NCBI RefSeq assembly: GCF_014779655.1
Contig: NZ_JACXYX010000002.1
Coordinates: 310,001 to 374,000 of the forward strand
Origin: Nocardioides ganghwensis
GTDB taxonomy: Bacteria; Actinomycetota; Actinomycetes; Propionibacteriales; Nocardioidaceae
Direction of reading: 5' to 3'
Length of the DNA stretch: 64,000 nt
The position numbers and the translations under genes were made by a program. This document shows, in pieces, positions 8,707 to 22,318 of this stretch (positions are counted from its first letter, which is position 1; the number at the start of each line of letters is the position of its first letter). The notes beneath the pieces were generated by a model, which saw only the letters and a list, made by a program, of their open reading frames with translations, did no database searches and was not told the origin of the DNA.

Positions 8707-9855
8707 CTACAGGCCCAGCATCCGCCCGATGATCTCCTTCTGGATCTCGGTCGTCCCGCCGTAGATCGTCTGGATCCGCGAGTCGGTGTAGGCCTTGGAG
8801 ATCGGGTACTCGTCCATGTAGCCGTACCCGCCGTGCAGCTGCACGCCGGCGTCCACGACGCGCTTCTGCAGCTCCGTCGTCCACCACTTCGCCATCGACG
8901 CGAGCGACGTGTCGACCTCGCCGGCATTCAGCCTGAGGACGCAGTCGTTGATGAAGACCCGGGCGATGTGGGCCTCGGTCGCCATCTCCGCCAGCACGAA
9001 GCGGTTGTGCTGGAACTTCCCGATCGGGCGGCCGAAGGCCTCGCGCTCCTTGGCGTACGCCAGGCACAGGTCGAGGACGTGCTCGACCGCGGCGACCGCG
9101 ATGCAGCCGATCGAGATGCGCTCCTGGGGGAGGTTCTCCATCAGCGAGATGAAGCCGGATCCCTCGGCGCCGAGCAGGTTCTCCTTGGGCACGCGCACGT
9201 CGGTGAACGACAGCTCGGCGGTGTCCTGCGCGTGCAACCCCATCTTGGCGAGGTTGCGACCGCGCTCGAAGCCCTCCATCCCGCGCTCGACGACCAGCAG
9301 CGAGATGCCCTGGTGCCCGGCGTCGGGGTTCGTCCGGCAGACCACGACCACCAGGTCGGAGAGGATGCCGTTGGAGATGAAGGTCTTCGACCCGTTGAGG
9401 ACGTAGTGGTCGCCCGCGTCGACCGCGGTCGTACGGATGCCCTGCAGGTCCGAGCCCGCGCCCGGCTCGGTCATCGCGATGGCGGTGACGAGGTCGCCGG
9501 AGACGCAGCCGGGCAGCCAGCGCTGCTTCTGCTCCTCGGTGCCGAGCGAGGAGATGTAGGGGACGATGATGTCGGTGTGCACGGCGAAGCCCGGGCCCGA
9601 GGCGCCGGCGCGTGCCGACTCCTCGGCGAGCACCATGTTGTAGCGGAAGTCCTTGATGCCGGGCCCGCCGTACGCCTCGTCGACGTCGAAGCACAGCAGC
9701 CCGCGCTCGCCCGCCCTGTGCCACACCTCGCGGTCGACGATCCCGGCCTGCTCCCACGCGGCGTGGTGGGGCGTGACCTCCTTCTCGAAGAACGCGCGTG
9801 CGACGGCACGGAAGTCCTCGTGCTCCTGCTCGAGGATGCTGGGGCGCTCAGGCAT
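8707..9855 (-). CDS. Acyl-CoA dehydrogenase
   Basis: A 382-residue FAD enzyme that would introduce the alpha-beta double bond into an acyl-CoA. Family landmarks are in order: TAIAMTEPGAGSDLQ (FAD-contacting loop), GSKTFISNG, the helical C-terminal domain with REAFGRPIGKFQ, QLHGGYGYMDEYPI, and IYGGTTEIQKEIIGRMLGL at the end. Both acyl-CoA dehydrogenase PROSITE-type signatures are recognisable. Substrate chain length is not evident. The gene is last in an operon with the three upstream genes (8-base overlap with the preceding one). GGAGAG precedes ATG. Confidence 0.94.
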   Translation of the reverse strand: MPERPSILEQEHEDFRAVARAFFEKEVTPHHAAWEQAGIVDREVWHRAGERGLLCFDVDEAYGGPGIKDFRYNMVLAEESARAGASGPGFAVHTDIIVPYISSLGTEEQKQRWLPGCVSGDLVTAIAMTEPGAGSDLQGIRTTAVDAGDHYVLNGSKTFISNGILSDLVVVVCRTNPDAGHQGISLLVVERGMEGFERGRNLAKMGLHAQDTAELSFTDVRVPKENLLGAEGSGFISLMENLPQERISIGCIAVAAVEHVLDLCLAYAKEREAFGRPIGKFQHNRFVLAEMATEAHIARVFINDCVLRLNAGEVDTSLASMAKWWTTELQKRVVDAGVQLHGGYGYMDEYPISKAYTDSRIQTIYGGTTEIQKEIIGRMLGL

Positions 9856-10552: not shown

Positions 10553-11460
10553 GGTGCCCCGTACCCCTTGGCCACCCCGGACACGCGGTTGAGCTCCTCG
10601 AGCATCGACAGCGGCCCGAGGTCCTCGAGCCGGTGGCCGTGGGGATAGGTGGTCGGCCGGTGGACGTACGCCGTGCGCCGCGGCGGCGCGAACCGGAGCA
10701 GCCGGCCGCGCAGCCGCAGACCGCCCCGTACGGCCCGGACGATCCACCGCGGCTGGCGCGGCAGGCCGAGCGCCTCGCGCAGCGGCTCGTCCATCACCGC
10801 GATGGTGACGCGGCGCAGCAGCGGGCGCAGCGGGGGAGGGGCGACCTCCTTCGCGATGCGGGTCGACGCCTCGGCCAGCCGCGTGGCAGCCGGCGTGTGG
10901 GAGAAGTGCCGGCGCTCGTGGTCGACGAGCAGTGCGAGGTAGCCGTCGTACGTCGTGGGCAGGTCCTTGAGGCCCATCAGCTCGCCGAAGCGGGTGGTGA
11001 CCCTGGTGATCGCCGCGAGCTCGTGCGGGTCGAGCGGTCGCCACCCGTACGCCTCGATCCACCGGACCGGGCCGACGATCGTCGTCGCGAGGACGTAGGC
11101 GAAGTCCTCGGCCGCGATGTCGTAGTGCCCGTGGATCCGGTTGAGGCGGCGCAGCGCGGCGTGCGAGCGCGGTGAGTCGATGCCGTCGAGCGTGGCCTCG
11201 TCACCGATCAGGATGGTGTCGTCGTAGCGCTTGACGCCGTGGTCGGCGAACTCGCGGGTCCGGTCGAGGAGCTCGGCGATCGAGGGGACGCCGTAGTCGC
11301 GCATGAAGGCGATGCCGGTGCCCTGGACGTAGTCCCACGGGAACTCGAAGCGCGCCGTGAGCCGCAGGATCTCGTCGTGGTCGACCTCCGGGTCCAGCGA
11401 CCGGATCCGGCGGAGGTTGTCGTAGCGACCGGGCGCATGCACGAGGCTCAGGAGACCCAT
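10549..11460 (-). CDS. MpaB/Lcp-like (DUF2236) oxygenase-family protein
   Basis: A 303-residue protein of the family that includes latex-clearing protein and MpaB, many of which are b-type heme oxygenases. Typical stretches are FEFPWDYVQGTGIAFMRDYG near the start, the helix EDFAYVLATTIVGPVRWIEA, then RPLDPHELAAITRVTTRFGELMGL. Whether the heme His is conserved cannot be settled by eye. ATG at 11460 overlaps the upstream F420 oxidoreductase by 13 bases. An internal GTG 18 bases later would shorten the overlap; the upstream start is kept because it maintains tight coupling. Confidence 0.78.
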   Translation of the reverse strand: MGLLSLVHAPGRYDNLRRIRSLDPEVDHDEILRLTARFEFPWDYVQGTGIAFMRDYGVPSIAELLDRTREFADHGVKRYDDTILIGDEATLDGIDSPRSHAALRRLNRIHGHYDIAAEDFAYVLATTIVGPVRWIEAYGWRPLDPHELAAITRVTTRFGELMGLKDLPTTYDGYLALLVDHERRHFSHTPAATRLAEASTRIAKEVAPPPLRPLLRRVTIAVMDEPLREALGLPRQPRWIVRAVRGGLRLRGRLLRFAPPRRTAYVHRPTTYPHGHRLEDLGPLSMLEELNRVSGVAKGYGAP

Positions 11461-12488
11461 TCCTTGAGCTGCGCCACGGTCGCGGCGGGGTCGTCGCTGA
11501 CCGGGGTGATGTTGAGGTCGGTGACGCCGGCCTCGCGGAAGGCCTCGATGCGCTCCTTGACGTAGGACTCCGGTCCGACGAGGTTGGCGGCCTCGAGCCA
11601 CTCGGCGGGGACGAGCGCCGCGGCCTGGTCCTTCTTGCCGGCGAGGTAGAGGTCCTGGATCTCCTCCGCCTCCTTCTCGTAGCCGTAGGCGCGCGCGACG
11701 TCGTTGTAGAAGTTCTTGCCCCTCGCGCCCATCCCGCCGACGTAGAGGGCGAAGACCGGTCGCGCGAAGTCGAGGAGCGCCTTGGTCTCCGGGCCCTCGC
11801 CGATGGCGACCATGCCGCCGGCCATCACCTGCAGCGGCCCGAGGCCGCCGAGCCGCTTGGCGTTGCCCCTGGCGAGCGCGTCGCCCCACACGAGGTGGGC
11901 CTTCTCGGGGTGGAACAGGTGCGGGATCCAGCCGTCCGCGATCTCGGCGGTCTGCTCGACGTTCTTGGGGCCGAGGGCGGCGATCCAGATCGGGATCGTG
12001 TCGCGCTCGGGCCGGGTGAGGAGCTTGAGCGGCTTGCCGAGTCCCGTGACCGCGCCGTGCTCCTTGGTCAGCGGGAGGTGGAACTCGCCGTCGGCCGACA
12101 GGGGCTCCCGCTTGAGCCCGCTGCGGATGATCTCGACGATCTCCGCGGTCCGCGCCATCGGCCGGCTGTAGGGCACGCCGTGGAAGCCCTCGATCACCTG
12201 CGGCCCGCTGACGCCGAGGCCGAGGATCGCGCGGCCCTGGCTGACGTTGTCGAGGCCGGCCGCCGTCTGCAGCAGGGCGCCGGGGGTGCGGGAGTAGATG
12301 TTGAGGATGCCCGAGCCGATCTGCACGGTCTCGGTCCGCGCCGCGAGGTAGCCCATCAGCGTCGGTGCGTCGAAGCCGTACGCCTCCGCGACCCACACGC
12401 TGTCGAGCCCGGCCCGCTCCAGCGCGACCACGTCGTCGGCGGCCTTGCGCGGGTTGCCGTCGTACATCAGGAGGGAGGCGAGGCGCAT
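11448..12488 (-). CDS. LLM-class F420-dependent oxidoreductase
   Basis: A 346-residue TIM-barrel enzyme of the luciferase-like family. The segment LERAGLDSVWVAEAYGFDAP, the strand QIGSGILNIYSRTP and LGLGVSGPQVIEGFHG are characteristic of F420-binding members such as the methylene-tetrahydromethanopterin-reductase-like and actinobacterial LLM oxidoreductases. F420 rather than FMN is inferred from the family pattern and host. It is the first gene of a four-gene unit on the minus strand. A perfect inverted repeat lies six bases before its ATG and there is no clear Shine-Dalgarno sequence, so expression probably starts close to the AUG. Confidence 0.88.
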   Translation of the reverse strand: MRLASLLMYDGNPRKAADDVVALERAGLDSVWVAEAYGFDAPTLMGYLAARTETVQIGSGILNIYSRTPGALLQTAAGLDNVSQGRAILGLGVSGPQVIEGFHGVPYSRPMARTAEIVEIIRSGLKREPLSADGEFHLPLTKEHGAVTGLGKPLKLLTRPERDTIPIWIAALGPKNVEQTAEIADGWIPHLFHPEKAHLVWGDALARGNAKRLGGLGPLQVMAGGMVAIGEGPETKALLDFARPVFALYVGGMGARGKNFYNDVARAYGYEKEAEEIQDLYLAGKKDQAAALVPAEWLEAANLVGPESYVKERIEAFREAGVTDLNITPVSDDPAATVAQLKEWVS

Positions 12489-12531: not shown

Positions 12532-15500
12532 TCAGTCCTGGGGGCACACGGACCGGTAGGGCTGGGCGGGCAGGTACTGCGCCCACTCGGCCTCGGTCAG
12601 GTCCCGGCCAGCCATCTGGCACGCGAAGTCCAGCGCCCGGTCGAGATCGGTGTCCCACCGGTAGACGCGACCGTCGTACGACGCGATCGCCACGTCGTGG
12701 GTGTCGCCGATGAACTGCGCTCCTGCCGGCACCGGCTTGCCCCGGTGAGGCGGGTACACCGTGCCCAGCAGGTCCAGCGTCGCGGCATCCCAGAGGCTGA
12801 CCCCGCCGTCCTCCGCACCGGACACCAGGCGCTCGCCGTCATCGGAGTAGCTGAGCCACAGGATCACTCCGCCGACGCTGGTGGATCGCTGCTCGTCATC
12901 CCCGGTCGCGACGTCGATGGTGATGATCTGACCGGTGTCGCCCGCCACCGCAACCGTCGAGCCGTCCGGGGAGCCCGCCGAAGCGAACGCGAACAGGTCC
13001 ACCGCACCCTCGGACGAGACCACTCCGGCGTCGACGTCGATCACCCGCCAGAGCATCGACGTCCCGTCGTCGGAGGCCTCGTAGACCACTGCGGCTCTCC
13101 CGCGCCCGAGCGGGATCGAGCAGCAGAACGCGGGAACGTCGACGGGCTCGCCCCGCGTCAGCAGGGTCTCGGCGTCGACGACGTAGGTCGGGCCGTCCCA
13201 GCTGCCGGCGAGGAGGCTGCGACCATCATCGACGTAGCTCAGGGAGTGGATGCCTCCCTCGACGATCTTCCACGTCCCGACCACCTCGCCGGTGGCGGAG
13301 TCGAGGACGCTGGCGATGTCCGGCTCGGTGCACTCCTCGCAGTGTGCGGCGTACCGACCACCGTCGGGGTGCCAGGTGCCGTAGGACCAATGGCCCTCGT
13401 TGGTCGGAAGACGGGTCGCGGGGGTCGCGTTCCCGGTGACGGTGCCGACGAACCGGACCCACCCCTTGCCCGCGTCGTCGAGCCAGCGATAGGCGACCTG
13501 CTGCCCGTCAGGGGACACGTCGGCATGCGCGAACCTCTCGACGCCGCTGACCCGGGCGGTCTGCTGCAGGTAGGTGTCAGTGGCGGACAGGTCCCAGGTA
13601 CGCAGCATGGAGTCACCGCCACCCCCGTGGACCAGGTCGTTGTCCGGACTGAAGCCGACGCCCCACGGATCGAAGGTGGTCCACCGTTCCTGTGGCCGGC
13701 CGGTGGCGGTGTCCCAGACGATGAGCTGTCCGTCGCGTGAGCTGGTCCCCACGAGCGTGCCGTCGGGCGAGAACCGGATGTCGGGGGAGACCACGTCCCG
13801 GTGACCTCGGAGCCTGGCGACCGTGTCGCCGCTGGCGGCGTCCACCAGCAACGCGTCCTTCTCCGTGACGTTGTCCTCGACCGCGAGAAGGGTCCCGTCG
13901 TCGTTGATGTCGAGGGCCAGGAACGACATCACGTCCTCCCGCCGCCAGATCCGCTTGCCCGTCGAGACACGGTGGGCGGTGAGAGGCGATGACGTGTAGA
14001 GCGTCTCGCCGTCGGGGCTGAGAGCCAGGCCTTGGATGATGTCGCCGGTTGGCACGCGAGTGGGGGACCTGGACGGCGAGCGCAGGTCCCAGACGACGGC
14101 GTAGGTCGACGAGGCGGCGGGGCCGGCTGTCTGCACTGGAACAGTCCGGAGCGCGGCCGCGAGGTAGCGTCCGTCTGCACTGAACTGGACATCGAAACCG
14201 ACGGTAGGTGTGCCTCCGGGAGGGGCGAGCCTCGTGCCCGTCGGTTGCATGGTGTCCGGGTCCAGCAGGCGCACGGGTTCGCTCGACTCCACGCTTTCCA
14301 GGACGACCGCCAGCTGGCTGCTGTCGGGGCTGAAGGCCCCGAGGAGCCATGCCTGTTCGTCCTCAGGGGCGCGGCCGGCGTCATAGCTGCGCAGCAGCCG
14401 GTTGGTGGAGGCGTCGTAGAGATGCATCCGGTTGGCCTCGTCGGAGGCAGCGATCCAGCGGCCGTCGGGACTCACGCTCAGGCCCTCCAGGTAGCCGCCT
14501 TCGGGCGGCGCCGACCGGACCAGGCGCGGCTGCCTGGCCAGCGCGGAGACCAGGTTGACCCGGGTCTCGGGCGACTCGTCCAGGCGTGCGCCGGCGGCCG
14601 CGAGGAGCAACGAGAGGTCGATGTCGTCGGTGAGCTGGGACCGGAGGCCCACCCGTCGCGCGTCAGCCGAGACGGCTGCCTGTTCCGCCCGGGCGGCATG
14701 GTCCGCGGCGCGGTCGGACTGGACCGCGGCGATGCCGCCGGCGGCGAGCGCGAGGACCAGGAGCACCGCCGCGCCGCCGAGGACGATCCGGAGCCGGCGG
14801 ATCAGCCGCGCCTGGGCACGGGCGTGCTCGGCCGCGTTGCGTTCCTCGGCATCAGCGGCCTCCAGAGCCGCTGCCAGGAAGGCGTGCTCGGTGTCGGTGA
14901 GGGTGGGGTCGGCACGCGACTGCCAGTCCAGGACCCGAGTCAGCCTGACCCCGCGGTACAGCTCGCTGTCCGGACGCCCGAGGGTGTCCCAGGCATCGGC
15001 GGCACCGCTCAGGTGGTGCCGGATCCGTTGTCCCTCGACGTCGTCGTCGAGCCAGCCCCGCAGCCGCGGCCACGCCCGCGCCAACGACTCGTGGGTGATC
15101 TCGAGGACACCCTCGTCGCTGGTCACCAGTCGTGCGGCGACCAGCGCCTCGACGAGCTGGTCGTGGGCGGGAGCGACGAGGCGGCGCGGCACGCGGGTCC
15201 GCACCGCCTCGCCCTCGGCTCCCGGAGAGACCAGCCGCAGGACGAGGTCGCGCAGCTGTCGCCGCTGCTCCGGCTCGAGCCGGCCGTAGAGCTGCTCGGC
15301 GGACTGGGCCACGGCGCCGTGGATGCCGCCGGAGGCCCGATAGCCCTCGACGGTGAGGGTGCTGCCCTCACGGCGTCGCCACGTCTCGAGCAGCGCGTGG
15401 GAGAGCAGGGGCAGGGCCCCGCGGTCGTCCCGCACCTCGTGCAGGAGGACGTCCACCAGTCCGTGCTCGATGACCAGCCCGGCCTGTTCGGCGGGCCGCT

Positions 15501-16758
15501 CGATCGCCTGGCGCAGACCGTGCTCGTCCAACGTCCCGACGAGGTGCAGCCCGCCCTCCACCAGCCGGCTGAAGCCGGCGTGCTCGGTCACCTGTCCGAT
15601 CCGGTCACCTCGCACGGTGACGAGCACGGGCCGCCGTCGCGACTCCTCGACCAGCCGGTCGAGGAAGGTCCGCCTCTCCTCCAGGTCGTCGCACAGGCTG
15701 AAGACCTCCTCACCCTGGTCCACGGCGAGGACGGTGCCGGGCGGGGCGTCCTCCTCCAGCGCGGTGAGCGCCTGCATAGGCTCGGGGCCGGGTGTGAGGA
15801 GGACGACGCGGTGACCGCGCCGACGGAGGGTCGCGAGCACGCCTGCCCGAAGGAGGGACGACTTGCCCGAGCCGGAAGGCCCCACGAGGGCGACGAACGA
15901 ACCTCGCTCGAGGATCGTCAGGCACGCGGCGACGTCCGCGTCCCGGCCGAAGAAGCGTTCGGTGTCGTCCACGTCGTAGGCCTTGAGCCCCTGCCACGGA
16001 CACTGTGCCGCCCCGGCCCGCGGCTGCGGGACGAGGAGCCGTGGGTCCTGGGTGAGGATCGACTGCTCGAGGGCGAGCATCTCCGGTGACGGGTCGATGC
16101 CCAGCTCCCGGGCGAGGACGGCGCGCAATTGGCGCAGCGACCGCAACGCCTCGCCCGGCGCTCCCGTCTGGTACTGCGCGAGGACGAGGAGCTCCCAGCG
16201 CCGCTCCCGCAGCGGCGCGGCCCGCACCAGGGCGTGCGTCTGCGCCAGGACCTCACGGGCACGGCCGCTGCGGAGCATGGCGTCGACGTGCATCTCCTGC
16301 GCCTCGAGGCGCAGCTCCTCGAGCCGGCCGGCTGCTCGCCGGGCGGGTGGCCAGTCGGGAAGGTCTGCGAAGGCGGGACCGTGCCACTGAGCGAGGGCCT
16401 TCTCCAGCAGGAAGGCCACGCGGTCGCTCTCCCCCATCGTCAGGAGTCCGCGCGCCCGGGTCACCTGCGCCTCGAACTCGTTCGCGTCGAGGTCGTCGAG
16501 GGGCACCGCCAGGACGTAGCCGTGGGGCGACGTCTCGATCGCCTGGGTGCCCAGCACCTTGCGGAGCCTGACGATGCATGACTGGAGGTTCTTGGCCGCC
16601 GACGGTGGCGGATGGTCTCCCCAGACGGCGTCGACGAGCTCGTCGACGCTCACCGGCTGCCCCGGCCTCGTAGCCAGGGCCTGCAGCACGACTCGGTCGT
16701 GGGGGCCGAGACGGCCCGATCCGTCGACGGTCAGAGGACCGAGGACTTTGATCCCCAC
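12532..16758 (-). CDS. Giant membrane-spanning regulator: SARP/BTAD - nSTAND NTPase - TM - WD40 (copy 1)
   Basis: A 1408-residue protein. Residues 1-90 form an OmpR-like winged helix (VVLQALATRPGQPVSVDELVD... then SCIVRLRKVLG) and about 95-240 a bacterial transcriptional activation domain, together the SARP DNA-binding unit. A STAND-type NTPase follows (CPWQGLKAYD, FFGRDADV, Walker A GPSGSGKSS at about 293-301, acidic VLAVDQGEEVFSL). One membrane helix lies near 656-677 with Arg residues just before it, placing the N-terminus inside. About 700 residues of WD40 repeats follow (SPDGRWIA, SPDGTLVG-type blades), probably two propellers, ending in the family tail GRDLTEAEW...YRSVCPQ. GTG at 16758 aligns with the paralogue's start; longer in-frame starts would run through the promoter repeats. 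Confidence 0.9.
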   Translation of the reverse strand: MGIKVLGPLTVDGSGRLGPHDRVVLQALATRPGQPVSVDELVDAVWGDHPPPSAAKNLQSCIVRLRKVLGTQAIETSPHGYVLAVPLDDLDANEFEAQVTRARGLLTMGESDRVAFLLEKALAQWHGPAFADLPDWPPARRAAGRLEELRLEAQEMHVDAMLRSGRAREVLAQTHALVRAAPLRERRWELLVLAQYQTGAPGEALRSLRQLRAVLARELGIDPSPEMLALEQSILTQDPRLLVPQPRAGAAQCPWQGLKAYDVDDTERFFGRDADVAACLTILERGSFVALVGPSGSGKSSLLRAGVLATLRRRGHRVVLLTPGPEPMQALTALEEDAPPGTVLAVDQGEEVFSLCDDLEERRTFLDRLVEESRRRPVLVTVRGDRIGQVTEHAGFSRLVEGGLHLVGTLDEHGLRQAIERPAEQAGLVIEHGLVDVLLHEVRDDRGALPLLSHALLETWRRREGSTLTVEGYRASGGIHGAVAQSAEQLYGRLEPEQRRQLRDLVLRLVSPGAEGEAVRTRVPRRLVAPAHDQLVEALVAARLVTSDEGVLEITHESLARAWPRLRGWLDDDVEGQRIRHHLSGAADAWDTLGRPDSELYRGVRLTRVLDWQSRADPTLTDTEHAFLAAALEAADAEERNAAEHARAQARLIRRLRIVLGGAAVLLVLALAAGGIAAVQSDRAADHAARAEQAAVSADARRVGLRSQLTDDIDLSLLLAAAGARLDESPETRVNLVSALARQPRLVRSAPPEGGYLEGLSVSPDGRWIAASDEANRMHLYDASTNRLLRSYDAGRAPEDEQAWLLGAFSPDSSQLAVVLESVESSEPVRLLDPDTMQPTGTRLAPPGGTPTVGFDVQFSADGRYLAAALRTVPVQTAGPAASSTYAVVWDLRSPSRSPTRVPTGDIIQGLALSPDGETLYTSSPLTAHRVSTGKRIWRREDVMSFLALDINDDGTLLAVEDNVTEKDALLVDAASGDTVARLRGHRDVVSPDIRFSPDGTLVGTSSRDGQLIVWDTATGRPQERWTTFDPWGVGFSPDNDLVHGGGGDSMLRTWDLSATDTYLQQTARVSGVERFAHADVSPDGQQVAYRWLDDAGKGWVRFVGTVTGNATPATRLPTNEGHWSYGTWHPDGGRYAAHCEECTEPDIASVLDSATGEVVGTWKIVEGGIHSLSYVDDGRSLLAGSWDGPTYVVDAETLLTRGEPVDVPAFCCSIPLGRGRAAVVYEASDDGTSMLWRVIDVDAGVVSSEGAVDLFAFASAGSPDGSTVAVAGDTGQIITIDVATGDDEQRSTSVGGVILWLSYSDDGERLVSGAEDGGVSLWDAATLDLLGTVYPPHRGKPVPAGAQFIGDTHDVAIASYDGRVYRWDTDLDRALDFACQMAGRDLTEAEWAQYLPAQPYRSVCPQD

Positions 16759-16800
16759 CCCGTCAGCGTCCTCGGCGTGGCGGCCCCGGTCAACGCTGCC

Positions 16801-16840
16801 TATACCGGGGCTGTACCGCTCCTGCGCCGGATGTGTACCG
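16801..16840. promoter_or_regulatory. Array of 11-bp-phased heptamer direct repeats (SARP-type binding site), copy 1
   Basis: Heptamers TATACCG (16801-16807), TGTACCG (16812-16818) and TGTACCG (16834-16840) lie in 11-bp register, with a degenerate TGCGCCG filling the slot at 16823. Direct heptamers with 4-bp gaps are the hallmark of SARP binding sites. The array is 42 bases before the GTG of the copy-1 regulator and 64 bases before the divergent lipoprotein ATG. A GTCAACGC box (16789-16796) is shared at the same offset with copy 2. Confidence 0.75.
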
Positions 16841-16904
16841 GCTGGTGAGCAACTGGACACCTCGAGCCGAACGGCCCGGTAACCCATCGGATCAGGAGAT
16901 CACC

Positions 16905-17171
16905 ATGAACAGCATCAAGAACACCTTCGCCGCCGTGGTCGCCGCCGCCACGCTCAGCCTCGCCGCCGCCTGCGGCGACCTGGAGGAGCCCGCCACGGGC
17001 GCCGACACCTCGGTCGAGAAGAGCAACGGCCCGGCCGCCAAGCTCCCGGTCCGCGACCACACGAACCGGATGGACTTCGGGGACGGCGAGGCGACGCTGC
17101 CGGCGGAGCCGAAGCGCACCAGGGACACCAACTCGTCGCGACTCGACTTCGGTGACGACGGGCGCCCGTGA
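16905..17171 (+). CDS. Small lipoprotein with NRMDFGD motif, divergent from SARP-STAND-WD40 copy 1
   Basis: An 88-residue protein. The N-terminal helix (KNTFAAVVAAATLSLAAAC) ends in a plausible lipobox Cys at about residue 23, so the mature chain would be short, hydrophilic and outside the membrane. Two related motifs, NRMDFGD near residue 54 and SRLDFGD near the C-terminus, occur; a copy also occurs in the lipoprotein beside the second regulator. ATG at 16905 has AGGAG at 16894-16898. It shares its upstream region with the regulator, and two small genes follow closely. Function unknown; a signal or partner for the regulator is an inference. Confidence 0.75.
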   Translation: MNSIKNTFAAVVAAATLSLAAACGDLEEPATGADTSVEKSNGPAAKLPVRDHTNRMDFGDGEATLPAEPKRTRDTNSSRLDFGDDGRP

Positions 17172-17497
17172 TGAGCGCCTACTCGATCGGCTCGGACTCG
17201 CCGCGCTGGTGGTGGCCGCCGGCCGCCGCCGGCGCGGCGGGGGCGGCCGCGATCGCCGCCATCCTCGTGCTTCCCGCCAACAGCACTGCTCCCAACGGGA
17301 CGATGCCGCAGGCCCCACCGGCACCGGCGGGCGACCTGTGGTTCTCCACGATCGACCCAGGCGTCGGCCGCCAGTGCTTCGCGATCCCGGCCCGAGGCGT
17401 TGCCTCGTTCGAGGACCACCCGCGCTGCGGGCAGCGCCCGGTCGTGGCGCCGTGGTCCGGGACCGACGTACGCCCCGGCCTCGACCCTCGCCCCTGA
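17171..17497 (+). CDS. Hypothetical single-pass membrane protein (108 aa)
   Basis: A short N-terminus with PRWWWPP is followed by one hydrophobic helix (about residues 17-37, Ala-rich) and a Pro-rich exported tail containing two Cys (RQCFAIPARG and HPRCGQ) that could pair. No known family. ATG at 17171 shares one base with the preceding lipoprotein stop (TGATG), arguing for coupled translation. A GTG three bases earlier is the alternative start. It probably belongs to the lipoprotein unit. Confidence 0.6.
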   Translation: MSAYSIGSDSPRWWWPPAAAGAAGAAAIAAILVLPANSTAPNGTMPQAPPAPAGDLWFSTIDPGVGRQCFAIPARGVASFEDHPRCGQRPVVAPWSGTDVRPGLDPRP

Positions 17498-17501
17498 GCC
17501 C

Positions 17502-17768
17502 ATGAAGACCGCCACGCGCGCCGGCCGGGCCCTCGGTGCGGGGTCCCTCGTCCTCGGCGTGCTGTCCGTCTCCGCGTGCGACCTGCCTGTCGGCCCGCCC
17601 GACCGCGACATCGGCTACGAGCACAATGTCGGTGCAGGCTACTGCGGACAGGTCTCGCGGAACGGCAGGTCGCCGAAGTGCTCGGTCCACTCCGCGCTCG
17701 TGAGGTCGCGGCCCACCGCGCGGCAGGCGAACTCCACGGCGCTCTCCCTCGAAAGGTCCCAGTCGTAG
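17502..17768 (+). CDS. Putative third small lipoprotein, probably truncated and overlapping the convergent regulator
   Basis: The frame codes for up to 88 residues starting MKTATRAGRALGAG, with a lipobox ending SVSAC at about residue 26. The following PPDRDIGYE resembles PPAQDIGVE in the lipoprotein beside the second regulator. After about 45 codons the frame runs into the antisense 3' end of the second regulator (stop at 17639) and becomes Arg/Ser-rich shadow sequence, and the NRMDF motif is absent. It may be a lipoprotein gene whose 3' part was lost when the two cassettes were joined. Whether it is expressed is uncertain. Confidence 0.45.
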   Translation: MKTATRAGRALGAGSLVLGVLSVSACDLPVGPPDRDIGYEHNVGAGYCGQVSRNGRSPKCSVHSALVRSRPTARQANSTALSLERSQS

Positions 17769-20700
17769 GCCAGGCCAGTGCCCCAGTCCAGGATCCGGGC
17801 CGTGCGGCCGTCGGGGAGGAAGGCGCCGGTCAGCACCGAGGCCTCGGGCCCGACCAGGGTCGCGACGGGGGTGACAGTGGCGGCGTCCCACACCGCGACG
17901 AGCCCGTTCGGGCTCGACGACAGCAGCTGGGTCCCGTCGGGCGAGAACACGACCTGCGACCTCTGGTCCCCGGCCCACTCCCGCGCCGGCGCGACGCGTC
18001 GCCCGGTCGACAGGTCGATGACCTCCACCTTGCCCCGGGCCCCGGAGAGGGCCCCGTCGCCGTTGTCCCCACCGCCGACGGCCGCGTACCTGCCGTCCGG
18101 TGACACGTCGAGCCACTGGTGGTAGCGCATCTCCAGCTCACCCCGGTCCACCACGACGCCGCCGACCAGGTCGACGACCGCCCAGCCGCTGTTCGGGACG
18201 ACGAAGCGGCCCGTGGCCTCGACCCCGCCGAGCAGCACCACGGCAGTACGACGATCCGGCCTAGCGACGACCCAGGACACGGGCTCACCGAGCTCCACGG
18301 GCGTCCCCACAGGCTCCAAGGTGGTGCCGTCCAGCAGTGTGACGGTCCCGTCGAGCGCGGACACCGCCAGCCGGCTGCCGTCAGCGGTGTAGTCGATCTC
18401 GGTGATCCGTTGCCCGGCAAGGACCGTGCGCTGGCCGGTCGGCTCGCCGTCCGCGTCCCAGATCCGGATCTCGCCGTCCGAGGTCGTCGCGAAGTGGCGC
18501 CCGTCCGGGTGGAAGGCGCCATAGGTGTGGCGGTAGCCGAAGAGAGGCGGGATCCTGCCCACGCTGCCTTCCCTGTAGTCGGTGACGGTCCAGGCGAAGT
18601 CGGCCAGCACCACCGAGCGCTCACCGCCTGCAGCCATCACGCCGAAGGCACCGCCGCGCTGCGACGACGTCGGGACGGTTCGGACGTAGCCCCGCTCCCC
18701 GGTGAGGTCCCACTTCCGCAGCGCGGCGCCGCCTCGCCCGGTGGCGAGCAGGAACGTCCCGTCGGCGGAGTAGTCGACGGCGTTCGCGTTTCCGCGATCG
18801 ACGGCGAACTCCCTGTGCGGGCGGTCCGGGTGGCCGAGCCGCCACTCCTGCACGTCGCGCTGGTTCAGGGTGGTCACGATGAACCTCCGCTCGTCCGGGG
18901 CGATCCGCAGCGAGCCGACGTACCCCTCGGTGGGATAGCTGGCACGCACCCGGCCGCTGACGCCGTCGAAGACCCGCGTCGTGTTGTCGTCGATGCCGAT
19001 GACCGCCTCGCCGCCACGGAGCGCGTCGAGCGACCAGATGTAGTGGCGGCCGCCCGGGTCCAGCGAGCGCGAGAGCCCGGTGCCCACGGAGTGTCTCGTC
19101 AGGGGGTGGGAGGTGAAGAGCACCTCTCCCCGCTCGTCGAGCGCGACCTGCGGGTGGATCGCGCCGGCGTCCATCCCGAACCGGCGGGGCGGCGCCTGGC
19201 GCTCGAGGTCCCACACCAGCGCCGCGCCGACGAGTGCCGCGGCTTCGGACTCCGACGGGCCCTGAAACCCGGCGGCGAGGTGGCTCCCGTCGCCGCTGAA
19301 CGTCACGTCGGTCGCCTGCCACCCGCGAGGTGGAAGGCCGCGCAGCGGGCGGGCCGGGGCGAGGCTCGGCACCGTGAGCAGGGCCAGCGGCCGGCGGTCG
19401 TTCGCGCTCCTCGCGACCGCGAGCCACCGCCCGTCGGGGCTGAACGTGAGCTGCCGGCCGAACGCAGGGCCCCAGACGACCAGCGGATCCCCCAGTCGGC
19501 GCTCGCCGGCGAGCTCGCCGCTCTCGGCATCGTAGAGCCGCAGGTGGTGCGACTCGTCCAGGACCGCGACGAACCGTCCGTCCGCGCTGGCATCGACGGA
19601 CAGGGGGAGGTCACCCTCGATGGGAGTGGAGGAGACGAGCTCCGGCCGCTTCGTGATCGCGGCCAGGAGGCTGTTGTGGGTGCCGGTGGCGGGATCCATC
19701 CGCACGCCGGCGACCGCGAGCAGCAGCGAGGTGTCGATGTCCCCCGTGACCAGCGCGCTGGCGCCGGCGCGCCGCGCGACGGCTTCGATCTCCGCCGCCG
19801 CGGCAGCGTCCGCGCTGTCGCCCGCCCGGTCCCACTGGGTGAGCGCCACACCTCCTCCTGCGACGGCGAGCAGGAGCAGCACGGTGGCGACGGCGAGGAC
19901 CTGACGCAGTCGTGAGATCAGCCGTGCCTGCTCCCTCGCCCGAGCTGCTGCGCTCTGCTCCTCGACGTCGGCCTGCGCGCGTCCGGCCTCCAGGAAGTCG
20001 CGTTCGACTGCGGTGAGCGTCGCTCCGGTGGTGGTCCACCAGTCCAGGGCACGGGTGAGCCGGACACCCCGGTACAGCTCGCTCGCGGGACGTCCCAGCG
20101 TGTGCCAGGCATCCGCGGTCGAGCTCAGGTGGTGCAGGATCCGACGGCCGTCGACGTCGTCCTCGAGCCACCCACGCAGTCGCGGCCAGGCCCTGGCCAG
20201 GGACTCGTGGGTGATCTCGAGGACGCCCTCGTCGCTGGTCACGAGCCGCGCCGAGACCAGCATCTCGATCAGCCGGTCGTGCTCGGCGTCGGTGCCGATC
20301 AGCCGGCGCGGCACACGGGTCCGCACGGGTTCGCCCTCGGTGCCGGGGGAGAGCAGCCGGAGCACGAGGTCGCGGAGCGCCTCGCGCAGGTTCGGCTCGA
20401 CCTGGGCATAGAGGCGCTCCGCAGACTGTGCCACCGCGTCGTGGATCCCGCCGCTGGCGCGGTAGCCGTCGACGGTGAGGGTGCTGCCCTCCCGCCTCTT
20501 CCAGGTCTCCAGCAGGGCGTGGGACAGGAGCGGCAGCGCTCCGGGGTCGTCCCGGACCTCGGTGACGAGGAGGTCGACCAGACCGGGCTCGAGGATCAGC
20601 CCGGCCTGTCGAGCGGGCCCGACCACGGCCTGCCGGAGGCCGGCCTCGTCCAGGCCGCCGACGAGGTAGAGACCGCGTTCGACGAGCCGGCTGAAGGCGG

Positions 20701-21877
20701 GGTAGGCGGTGAGGTCCGCAAGATGGTCGGCACGCAGCGCCACGACGACGGGGCGGCGCGGGGCCTCCTCAGCCAGGGCGTCGATGAAGGCGCGAGCCTC
20801 GTCGGGGTCCTCGCAGAGGGTGAACAGCTCCTCAGCCTGGTCGACCAGGAGGGCATCACCGGATCCGGACGCGGTGAGCGCCGACAGGGTCTGGACGGGA
20901 TGGCGGCCCGGCGTGATCGTCACCACCCGGGTGCCGCGCTGCCGGAGGCGTGCCCCGATCCCTGCTCGCATCAGCGACGACTTGCCCGAGCCCGACGGGC
21001 CCACCAGCGCCAGCAGTCCCTGCGCGTCGAGGATCGCCATCCCGGCCTCGATCTCACCCTCGCGGCCGAAGAACCGGTCCGCCTCCGTGACGTCGTACGA
21101 CTGGAGGCCCTGCCACGGGCAGGTCGGGTGCGCCACAGGGGCCTCGTCGTGCTGGAGCGCGGGGTCCTGCCGCAGGATGGACTGCTCGAGGGCCACGACC
21201 TCGGGCGCGGGATCGATGCCGAGCTCACGGGAGAGGACCGCCCGGAGCTGCCGGATGGTGCGCAACGCCTCGCCCTGGGCCCCGGTCCGGTACTGGGCCA
21301 GGGCGAGCAGCTCCCATCGGCGTTCTCGCAGCGGAGCCGACCGGACCATCTCGTGAGCCCGGGCCAGGGCCTCGCGCGCGCGACCGCCGCGCAGCTGGGC
21401 GTCGAGCAGGAGCTCCTCGGCGTCTCGGCGAAGCTCCTCGAGGCGGCCGGCCTCGCGGCGCGCGGGCGGCCACTCGTCGAGATCCGCGAACGCGGGGCCG
21501 CGCCACAGGCGCAACGCCTGCTCCAGCAGGAAGCAGACGCGGTCGGCCTCGCCGAGCTCGAGGAGCTCGCGAGCCCTCGAGACCTGGGCCTCGAAGCGCT
21601 GGGCGTCGACGTCGTCGGCGGGGGCACCGAGCCGGTAGCCGTCGGCAGTGGTCTCGATGGCGTCGGTACCGAGGACCCTGCGCAGCCGGACGATGCACGA
21701 CTGCAGGTTCTTGCGGGCCGAGGCGGGCGGAGCGTCTCCCCAGAGCGCGTCGGTCAGCTCGTCGGCCGTGACCGAGCGTCCCTGGCGGACGGCCAGGGCC
21801 TGGAGTACGACACGGTCCCGTGGGCCGAGACGTCCCGAGCCGTCCACGGTGAGCGGGCCGAGGACCTGGATGCCCAC
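17639..21877 (-). CDS. Giant membrane-spanning regulator: SARP/BTAD - nSTAND NTPase - TM - WD40 (copy 2)
   Basis: A 1412-residue paralogue of the copy-1 regulator with the same domain order. The N-terminus reads GIQVLGPLTVDGSGRLGPRD, nearly identical to copy 1. Walker A GPSGSGKSSLMRAG is near residue 292, the acidic DALLVDQAEELFTL follows, and long shared stretches continue (LPLLSHALLETW, TSDEGVLEITHESLARAWP). A membrane helix lies near 659-680, then WD40 blades and the tail GRDLTSAEW...FRETCPQ. GTG at 21877 corresponds exactly to the copy-1 start. Conservation is higher in the SARP and NTPase parts than in the propeller, as expected if the two sense different signals. The gene converges with the short genes downstream of copy 1. 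Confidence 0.9.
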   Translation of the reverse strand: MGIQVLGPLTVDGSGRLGPRDRVVLQALAVRQGRSVTADELTDALWGDAPPASARKNLQSCIVRLRRVLGTDAIETTADGYRLGAPADDVDAQRFEAQVSRARELLELGEADRVCFLLEQALRLWRGPAFADLDEWPPARREAGRLEELRRDAEELLLDAQLRGGRAREALARAHEMVRSAPLRERRWELLALAQYRTGAQGEALRTIRQLRAVLSRELGIDPAPEVVALEQSILRQDPALQHDEAPVAHPTCPWQGLQSYDVTEADRFFGREGEIEAGMAILDAQGLLALVGPSGSGKSSLMRAGIGARLRQRGTRVVTITPGRHPVQTLSALTASGSGDALLVDQAEELFTLCEDPDEARAFIDALAEEAPRRPVVVALRADHLADLTAYPAFSRLVERGLYLVGGLDEAGLRQAVVGPARQAGLILEPGLVDLLVTEVRDDPGALPLLSHALLETWKRREGSTLTVDGYRASGGIHDAVAQSAERLYAQVEPNLREALRDLVLRLLSPGTEGEPVRTRVPRRLIGTDAEHDRLIEMLVSARLVTSDEGVLEITHESLARAWPRLRGWLEDDVDGRRILHHLSSTADAWHTLGRPASELYRGVRLTRALDWWTTTGATLTAVERDFLEAGRAQADVEEQSAAARAREQARLISRLRQVLAVATVLLLLAVAGGGVALTQWDRAGDSADAAAAAEIEAVARRAGASALVTGDIDTSLLLAVAGVRMDPATGTHNSLLAAITKRPELVSSTPIEGDLPLSVDASADGRFVAVLDESHHLRLYDAESGELAGERRLGDPLVVWGPAFGRQLTFSPDGRWLAVARSANDRRPLALLTVPSLAPARPLRGLPPRGWQATDVTFSGDGSHLAAGFQGPSESEAAALVGAALVWDLERQAPPRRFGMDAGAIHPQVALDERGEVLFTSHPLTRHSVGTGLSRSLDPGGRHYIWSLDALRGGEAVIGIDDNTTRVFDGVSGRVRASYPTEGYVGSLRIAPDERRFIVTTLNQRDVQEWRLGHPDRPHREFAVDRGNANAVDYSADGTFLLATGRGGAALRKWDLTGERGYVRTVPTSSQRGGAFGVMAAGGERSVVLADFAWTVTDYREGSVGRIPPLFGYRHTYGAFHPDGRHFATTSDGEIRIWDADGEPTGQRTVLAGQRITEIDYTADGSRLAVSALDGTVTLLDGTTLEPVGTPVELGEPVSWVVARPDRRTAVVLLGGVEATGRFVVPNSGWAVVDLVGGVVVDRGELEMRYHQWLDVSPDGRYAAVGGGDNGDGALSGARGKVEVIDLSTGRRVAPAREWAGDQRSQVVFSPDGTQLLSSSPNGLVAVWDAATVTPVATLVGPEASVLTGAFLPDGRTARILDWGTGLAYDWDLSRESAVEFACRAVGRDLTSAEWTEHFGDLPFRETCPQ

Positions 21878-21919
21878 CGCTCCACGGTGCTCCCGACTTC
21901 GGGTCGCGTCAACGCGGCG

Positions 21920-21959
21920 GATACCGGACGGATACCGCTGGGGGGCCTGTCGGATACCG
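21920..21959. promoter_or_regulatory. Array of 11-bp-phased heptamer direct repeats (SARP-type binding site), copy 2
   Basis: Three exact GATACCG heptamers lie at 21920, 21931 and 21953, giving 11- and 22-bp periods; the third slot (21942) is degenerate. Position relative to the regulator GTG (42 intervening bases) and the adjacent GTCAACGC box (21908-21915) are identical to copy 1. The heptamer differs from copy 1 mainly in its first bases, so the two regulators may or may not cross-bind. Confidence 0.75.
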
Positions 21960-22027
21960 GCGCGGTCGAACGTCGAGCGGTCGGAGCGCCCGCTCCGGCG
22001 GATCCACGACATCGGAAGGACCAGACC

Positions 22028-22318
22028 ATGGACATCATCAGCACTGTGCGCGCCTGCCTGGTGGCAGCATCGTTCGGCGTCGCCAGCCTGACGCTGAGCT
22101 CCTGCGGCGACGAGGTGAGCCCACCCGCCCAGGACATCGGCGTCGAGCTGCCGGAACCGGCTACCCAGCCCTTCGAGCCGCCGGAACCGACCACCCGGCA
22201 CTACGAGCCCGCCTGCAACACCCGAGCAGCGGTCAGGCCCTGCCCGGAACCGAACCCGGCCGGCAGCGGGACCCGCAACCGGATGGACTTCAACGACGAG
22301 TTCGAACCCGGACGGTGA
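22028..22318 (+). CDS. Small lipoprotein with NRMDFND motif, divergent from SARP-STAND-WD40 copy 2
   Basis: A 96-residue protein with a signal helix ending in the lipobox LTLSSC (Cys about residue 26). The mature part is rich in Pro and Glu (repeated EPPEPT-like stretches), contains two further Cys, and closes with RNRMDFNDEFEPGR, sharing NRMDF with the lipoprotein beside copy 1. GGAAGGA at 22014-22020 is seven bases before ATG. It begins 68 bases from the repeat array that also serves the divergent regulator. Function unknown. Confidence 0.72.
   Translation: MDIISTVRACLVAASFGVASLTLSSCGDEVSPPAQDIGVELPEPATQPFEPPEPTTRHYEPACNTRAAVRPCPEPNPAGSGTRNRMDFNDEFEPGR

Follow-up and report, generated by a model that had tools for sequence, protein, structure and literature searches.

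A three-box operator links predicted membrane-bound SARP regulators to genes for small, predicted-exported proteins in Nocardioides ganghwensis and its relatives

Introduction

The window studied here (the whole stretch of DNA analysed, 64,000 nucleotides of Nocardioides ganghwensis) contains two very large regulator genes, each divergent from a small neighbouring gene, and raises the question of what a regulator of this size has to do with so small a partner. Both regulators carry the DNA-binding head of SARPs, which are activators of antibiotic genes. The original prediction was a duplicated cassette, in which each regulator controls one small lipoprotein gene in the manner of AfsR and AfsS. 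The sections of the SARP review drawn on here (PMC10972967) describe small, medium, large (with TPR) and SARP-LAL forms.

Results

Regulators of the window

The regulators and the domains of the first are as follows.

12532-16758, minus strand: regulator 1, 1408 aa, GTG start
Regulator 1, residues ~1-85, 90-235 and 254-597: wHTH, BTAD and nSTAND1 (Pfam)
Regulator 1, residues ~658-676 and onwards: predicted TM helix, then WD40 twin propeller (hydropathy, Pfam, AlphaFold2)
17639-21877, minus strand: regulator 2, 1412 aa, GTG start, domain order as in regulator 1

In regulators 1 and 2, respectively, Trans_reg_C (PF00486) scored 37.5 and 34.0 bits (cut-off 26.2) and BTAD (PF03704) 125.5 and 122 bits (cut-off 22.1), which gives the N-terminal OmpR-like wHTH followed by BTAD that defines the SARP family. 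The nSTAND1 model (PF20703) scored 349.8 and 342 bits, and the Walker A P-loop residues expected of an nSTAND NTPase are invariant, save in one column, across a nine-row alignment. A single strong hydrophobic helix was found in each protein by hydropathy, and the C-terminal halves match WD40 and propeller models among the best 25 Pfam matches listed. The predicted pair of paralogues with SARP-nSTAND1-TM-WD40 order was thus borne out by Pfam and hydropathy. The propeller was modelled by AlphaFold2 with a pLDDT of 92.7. Apaf-1 (3sfz) stands third in the Foldseek list for this model, with a whole-chain TM-score of 0.36 and an rmsd of 12.4; the VIA-align rows cover mostly the first propeller (model residues 61-375). 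Neighbouring genes at 8707-9855 and 11448-12488 resemble, by eye, an acyl-CoA dehydrogenase and an F420-type LLM oxidoreductase.

Small divergent genes and a third cassette

Four small genes of the window, all on the plus strand, belong to the two cassettes.

16905-17171, plus strand: predicted lipoprotein 1, 88 aa, 146 bp from the regulator 1 start
17171-17497, plus strand: small membrane protein, 108 aa, its start overlapping the lipoprotein 1 stop (ATGA)
17502-17768, plus strand: third small gene of cassette 1, predicted lipoprotein, 88 aa, its end overlapping the regulator 2 end
22028-22318, plus strand: predicted lipoprotein 2, 96 aa, 150 bp from the regulator 2 start

The measured distances of 146 bp (cassette 1) and 150 bp (cassette 2) agree with the predicted lipoprotein genes about 150 bases away. 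One small gene per regulator, as first envisaged, describes cassette 2; cassette 1 has two more, 17171-17497 and 17502-17768. Genes resembling 17502-17768 also hold the third operon position at two related loci (L046 and L047). Likewise, two cassettes do lie in the window, but the genome holds three. A third full-length regulator paralogue (49% identical) was found at C24:36444-40709 of the 4.5-Mb genome, and its divergent gene encodes a homologue of the 17171-17497 membrane protein, not a lipoprotein.

No Pfam family was matched by the four small proteins of the window at E 0.01, and the NCBIfam matches of two of them fell far under the cut-off. The databases hold 62 relatives of the 17171-17497 protein and 26 of lipoprotein 1 (own copies counted), none functionally named and one of them labelled Nocardioides. 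Most of the lipoproteins carry a sequence close to PPxQDIG directly after the lipobox cysteine (22028-22318 and 17502-17768 in the window; L045, L046, L047, L052, L053, L064 and L065 elsewhere), and this shared sequence suggests one family despite differing tails. Many small membrane or secreted partners, including the 17171-17497 protein and those at L011, L018, L020, L024 and L101, show a C-terminal stretch with two cysteines, of the kind CF..WN..LDG.QP.C, and these cysteines could form a disulphide loop.

The three-box operator

The pattern RTACC-N6-RTACC-N17-RTACC, which formed no part of the original prediction, occurs in all three cassette intergenic regions, oriented towards the small gene. 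In the window its positions are as follows.

16802-16806, 16813-16817 and 16835-16839, plus strand: boxes of operator 1, directed towards the small genes
21921-21925, 21932-21936 and 21954-21958, plus strand: boxes of operator 2

With up to one mismatch allowed, the operator was found at three places in the whole genome, all of them exact and all in cassettes; the reversed-pattern control gave none on the forward and one on the reverse strand. A scan of 215 genomes of the genus returned the exact operator at 28 places in 18 genomes, compared with a single place for the reversed control. All 18 belong to the 23 genomes with a regulator match, one of which (G153) matches through a more distant protein (L103) that lacks boxes, and not one place was found in the other 192. 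Chance as the origin of the operator is ruled out by the reversed-pattern controls, together with the absence of any fit within two mismatches among 3000 control windows.

Of the 28 places, 24 are located between a regulator and its divergent side. At the remaining four (G026:C32, G087, G108 and G210) the operator stands elsewhere, yet it is followed each time by a small gene with a predicted-exported product; in G026 this gene shares the strand of the regulator. Under one fixed test, a small predicted-exported gene begins 59-81 nt past the third box at 27 of the 28; the lone exception, an operator without a small gene (L092), comes from a genome that is 61% complete. At L098 (G087:C13:330725), L099 (G108:C3:292939) and L100 (G210:C25:30837) the operator and small exported gene stand without a divergent regulator. 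Perhaps these are orphan members of the regulon, left after loss or rearrangement of the regulator gene. An oxidoreductase similar in kind to the one in the window lies near the L099 operator.

Beyond the genus, a scan of 391 genomes of the order found the operator in four, which is about the control level (three genomes). None of four such background places precedes a small exported gene, the overlapping tandem-array places L134 and L135 being left out of this count. A genome of another family contains an 11-bp tandem array, GTACCTGACCA, with several matches to the operator pattern (L132, G297:C10:94987), which we regard as unrelated background.

The two-box pattern alone shows no excess over its control. 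It was found at 13 places in six genomes (10 at cassettes, three elsewhere) versus 17 for the reversed pattern, and at three places in the genome under study, all cassettes, versus two for the control. The specificity of the operator therefore resides in its three boxes.

Promoter geometry

The operator lies between two predicted promoters.

-35 TTGAC at 16789-16793 and -10 GACGCT at 16765-16770, minus strand: predicted promoter of regulator 1, from the relatives' consensus
GTG at 16758, minus strand: transcript start of regulator 1, predicted leaderless
-35 TTGAC at 21908-21912 and -10-like CACCGT at 21884-21889, minus strand: predicted promoter of regulator 2, from the relatives' consensus
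16849-16855, plus strand: predicted -10-like element of small operon 1, 8-9 bp past the third heptamer
GAACGT at 21968-21973, plus strand: predicted -10-like element of small gene 2, 8 bp past the third heptamer

The regulator promoters were lined up by start codon for 36 regulators, 35 of the genus and one of another family. GTCAA, the regulator -35 TTGAC read backwards, was present in the expected stretch in 35 of the 36, in 33 at either of two neighbouring offsets. A GACNNT element follows 17 bp on from this -35, with its A, C and T conserved in 30, 29 and 30 of 35. The start codon comes 6 bp after GACNNT, which predicts a leaderless regulator mRNA. Towards the small gene, the box spacings are 11 and 22 bp, and the third heptamer is followed 8 bp later by a -10-like element. 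Among the 40 small-gene promoters (those of 49 with GTCAA and the third box as expected), this element has A second in 34, A fourth in 31 and C or T last in 36. According to the published account of AfsR used here, SARP repeats have a spacing of 11 or 22 bp, and 8 bp separate the 3' repeat from the -10 (PMC10936776). The spacing of 11, 22 (21 where N16 replaces N17) and 8 bp in the cassettes follows the same rule as a matter of sequence arrangement, and the heads of these regulators would bind the three boxes.

Conservation across relatives

Conservation was followed in 49 full-length regulators (deduplicated, at least 1350 aa). Since a single related genus contributes 17 of the 49, counts over this set do not represent independent events, and the numbers of regulators are an undercount because only the best two candidates per genome were scored. 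The best three-box fit had no mismatch in 34 of the 49, at most one in 41 and at most two in 44. A divergent small gene with a ribosome site and a hydrophobic N-terminus (median ~100 aa, range 63-244) was found for 46 of the 49, export being judged by hydropathy and motif. The identical test, which was defined after the family was known, was passed by none of 98 mechanical long ORFs and by 313 of 20,000 random places (1.6%) taken from the same loci; 16 weak loci from a P-loop-saturated genome scan served as control DNA. To judge from the operator and this conservation, the paired layout of regulator and divergent small gene is more than chance.

Three of the 49 depart from the common layout. 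At L019 the operator and small gene lie on the regulator's own strand, at L057 they lie 6.4 kb past the regulator end, and L124 is a regulator with neither. The predicted divergent lipoprotein was recovered in relatives as a small exported gene, but a lipobox-like motif is present in only 12 of the 46 first genes, and one of these (L112) is probably a false match. The lipoprotein was accordingly rejected as the defining partner; membrane proteins, secreted two-cysteine proteins and proteins with a signal peptide plus TM helix also take this position.

In a second family of the order, the place of the operator is kept in 17 of 17 regulators with N16 instead of N17 (three mismatches at L125), and the partner is of another type, with a signal peptide and a proline-rich stretch ahead of a C-terminal TM helix and RRR. 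Three boxes are also kept by six regulators from three other families of the class, either in the usual position or one 11-bp period beyond it. The boxes are altered at L167 (ATATC three times) and L150 (one box changed). The divergent genes of L151, L152 and L167 encode small lipoproteins, those of L149 and L150 larger predicted-exported proteins that recall CapA and cupin by eye, and at L153 the boxes are present but the divergent ORF lacks a signal. Inspection by eye revealed no boxes of this kind at three other SARP-headed hits, L154, L155 and L168. Distant SARP-nSTAND proteins with far weaker head E-values were also seen at L097 (G188:C1:4496585), L103 (G153:C1:1549960) and, in the genome under study, L004/L005 (C1:174008-176968). 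These have no boxes, which places the cassette in one clade.

Topology of the regulators

In all 49 regulators, positive charge is found ahead of the membrane helix. Cysteines are even in number behind the helix in 47 of the 49, compared with 27 in front of it, and Cys1380 and Cys1405 form the C-terminal pair of regulator 1. Charge bias and cysteine parity together predict an external twin propeller, on the same side of the membrane as the small proteins; the original prediction assigned it no side. We consider an external propeller probable, with fairly high confidence.

Heads, propellers and classes of small protein

Regulators 1 and 2 are 75% identical in the wHTH, 69% in BTAD, 68% in nSTAND and 27% in the propeller. 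The heads, first described as nearly identical, are better called similar (68-75%), and the greater divergence of the propellers stands. Among the 1176 pairs of the 49 regulators, 68 combine heads at least 70% identical with propellers at most 35% identical, and 22 combine propellers of at least 55% with heads of at most 62%. The regulator at L048 is a mosaic, with a head 82% identical to that of regulator 2 and a propeller 61% identical to that of regulator 1 and 25% to that of regulator 2. The idea that two propellers serve two signals is suggested by propellers that diverge and recombine with heads.

Eight regulators share the head type of L048 and regulator 2. Five of them have propeller type 1 and go with lipoprotein class A2; three have propeller type 2 and go with small-protein class A1 or B. 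The pattern is a hint that each small protein goes with its propeller, although gene conversion of heads could also yield it. Propeller type 2 pairs with classes A1, B and C, so that there is no strict pairing. In a general test of 21 of 46 regulators (17 of class K and eight 'other' omitted; classes from hand-written patterns), permutation gave p 0.0005-0.003 for every domain. Nearest neighbours agreed in class in 16 of 21 for the head, 17 for nSTAND, 12 for linker-TM, 15 for the propeller and 12 for the C-terminus; whether class follows propeller rather than head is ambiguous, since this test does not separate them.

Discussion

Comparison with known systems

To our knowledge, Apaf-1 carries neither a DNA-binding head nor a TM helix separating its NTPase from the propellers. 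Its STAND NTPase and double WD40 propeller (3sfz) resemble the rear part of the cassette regulators. The actinobacterial WD40 protein PkwA (5yzv) has a different head and is named a Ser/Thr protein kinase in the PDB.

AfsR-AfsS, the Streptomyces pair with a large SARP, shares with the cassettes a wHTH and BTAD head, a STAND-type NTPase, a small target gene, and direct repeats 11 or 22 bp apart of which the last lies 8 bp from a poor -10, as far as these features are given in the account used (PMC10936776). The same account gives AfsR a C-terminal TPR sensor and the box CGTTYATC, and its passages on AfsR mention no membrane helix (PMC10936776). The cassette regulators have nSTAND1, one TM helix and, in place of TPR, a WD40 twin propeller (WD40/propeller models among the best 25 Pfam matches listed; the AlphaFold2 propeller); their boxes read RTACC, and the product is predicted to be exported. 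The NCBIfam AfsR model (NF053617) scored 144.3 and 140.8 bits, over the head only, against a cut-off of 1430, and equivalence to AfsR was rejected. By predicted head and site geometry the regulators are SARPs, not AfsR. The AfsR-AfsS-like control first proposed nevertheless appears strongly supported by the SARP-geometry operator and the partners of 46 of the 49 regulators; the part that did not hold is that the partner need be a lipoprotein.

On the membrane side, regulators of the ToxR/CadC type have a cytoplasmic OmpR-like wHTH, one TM helix and an outer disulphide-bearing sensor (PMC9214523), features that hydropathy, charge and cysteine parity predict for the cassette regulators. The cassette regulators differ in their BTAD, twin propeller, SARP-type operator and Gram-positive host, and BTAD and nSTAND1 stand between wHTH and TM helix, which are joined directly in the ToxR/CadC type. 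The co-component systems VtrA/VtrC and ToxR/ToxS are similar as fast-evolving cassettes of a membrane-bound regulator and a small outer partner; there, the partner is co-transcribed, lipocalin-like and forms the sensor with the regulator (PMC9214523). In the cassettes, by contrast, the partner is divergent (46 of 49) rather than downstream in one unit, bears the operator and is of many unrelated types, and its binding to the regulator is a proposal. By analogy, then, the DNA side looks SARP-like, the membrane side ToxR-like, and the partner layout recalls co-component systems.

The cassette itself is real and conserved. No earlier description of it, and no system of exactly this form, was found in the open-access literature searched, in agreement with the original prediction; the accessible parts of PMC8195603 and PMC7159879, included in that search, do not describe the combined architecture. 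The sections of the SARP review drawn on here contain none of the words WD40, membrane, transmembrane or lipoprotein (PMC10972967).

A proposed mechanism and its rivals

We propose that the helix would relay an event at the propeller, outside the cell, to the nSTAND NTPase, and that this NTPase would gate the SARP head. The head would then bind the three boxes and bring RNA polymerase to the promoter of the small gene, in the way AfsR acts at afsS. The small product, on the outer face, would bind the propeller as a ligand, co-sensor or brake. The parts of this scheme differ in strength. Domain order, the operator with its constant spacing and the association with small genes are seen in the sequences themselves, and topology, propeller fold, promoter elements and export are predictions. 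We consider the step from head through operator to small gene very probable. Action of the small protein on the propeller, by which a feedback loop would be closed, is a tentative idea that falls somewhat short of an even case; it is drawn from the small protein's place on the propeller's side of the membrane and from the small gene being almost the only one that bears a site, while the lineage differences among the small proteins make one shared binding mode hard to picture. For the whole explanation, an external-propeller SARP that switches on a small gene whose exported product acts on the propeller, the arguments for and against are about balanced.

The strongest competing explanation, which we rate as a serious possibility though short of an even one, keeps the output and drops the feedback: the regulator would sense an unrelated outside cue, and the small proteins would be surface effectors such as coat, adhesive or inhibitory proteins. 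In the sections of the review cited above, SARPs usually act as activators of outputs (PMC10972967), and such an arrangement fits both the four of 28 places at which the link between operator and small gene is independent of regulator position and the wide variation of small-protein types, which are not strictly tied to propeller type. It leaves a giant sensor serving one to three tiny genes, as almost no other gene bears a site, and it does not account for propeller and product being predicted on the same side. Present evidence barely separates output alone from feedback.

Control of the regulator's own gene, with the small gene as a passenger, we consider improbable. Many regulators control themselves, autoregulation being common, and the boxes do lie just upstream of the regulator -35, at a distance fixed in most relatives. 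Against this, the boxes face the small gene, the third heptamer being followed at 8 bp by a -10-like element, and the four operators away from any regulator's divergent side still precede a small exported gene. An ordinary cytoplasmic pair of the AfsR-AfsS type, with the propeller inside and a misleading helix prediction, is very unlikely: the SARP head, STAND NTPase and small neighbouring target would suit it, and Foldseek lists the cytoplasmic STAND double propeller of Apaf-1 (TM-score only 0.36), but the regulators score 144 bits to the AfsR model against 1430, the charge bias in 49 of 49 and the cysteine parity place the propeller outside, and the small products carry signal peptides, lipoboxes or membrane helices.

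Returning to the feedback scheme, its furthest extension is a new kind of transmembrane receptor, an Apaf-1-like STAND protein divided across the membrane. Its external twin propeller would sense a small protein exported by the same cell under control of the receptor, and each strain would have its own, quickly diversifying self-signalling loops, with receptor heads and propellers exchanged as modules. We regard this as speculative and doubtful.

Meaning

The operator ties each regulator to one to three small predicted-exported genes, and its specificity suffices to pick out the cassettes in a set of 215 genomes. The SARP of these cassettes is predicted to be a membrane receptor with its sensor outside, and the sections of the SARP review used here name no membrane-bound form (PMC10972967). 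The operator, the promoters and the partner genes are placed at single-base resolution, so that direct tests of binding, activation, topology and feedback are each possible. The DNA pattern also provides a handle for finding small exported proteins that are annotated as hypothetical. If the prediction is true, a STAND NTPase would signal across the membrane.
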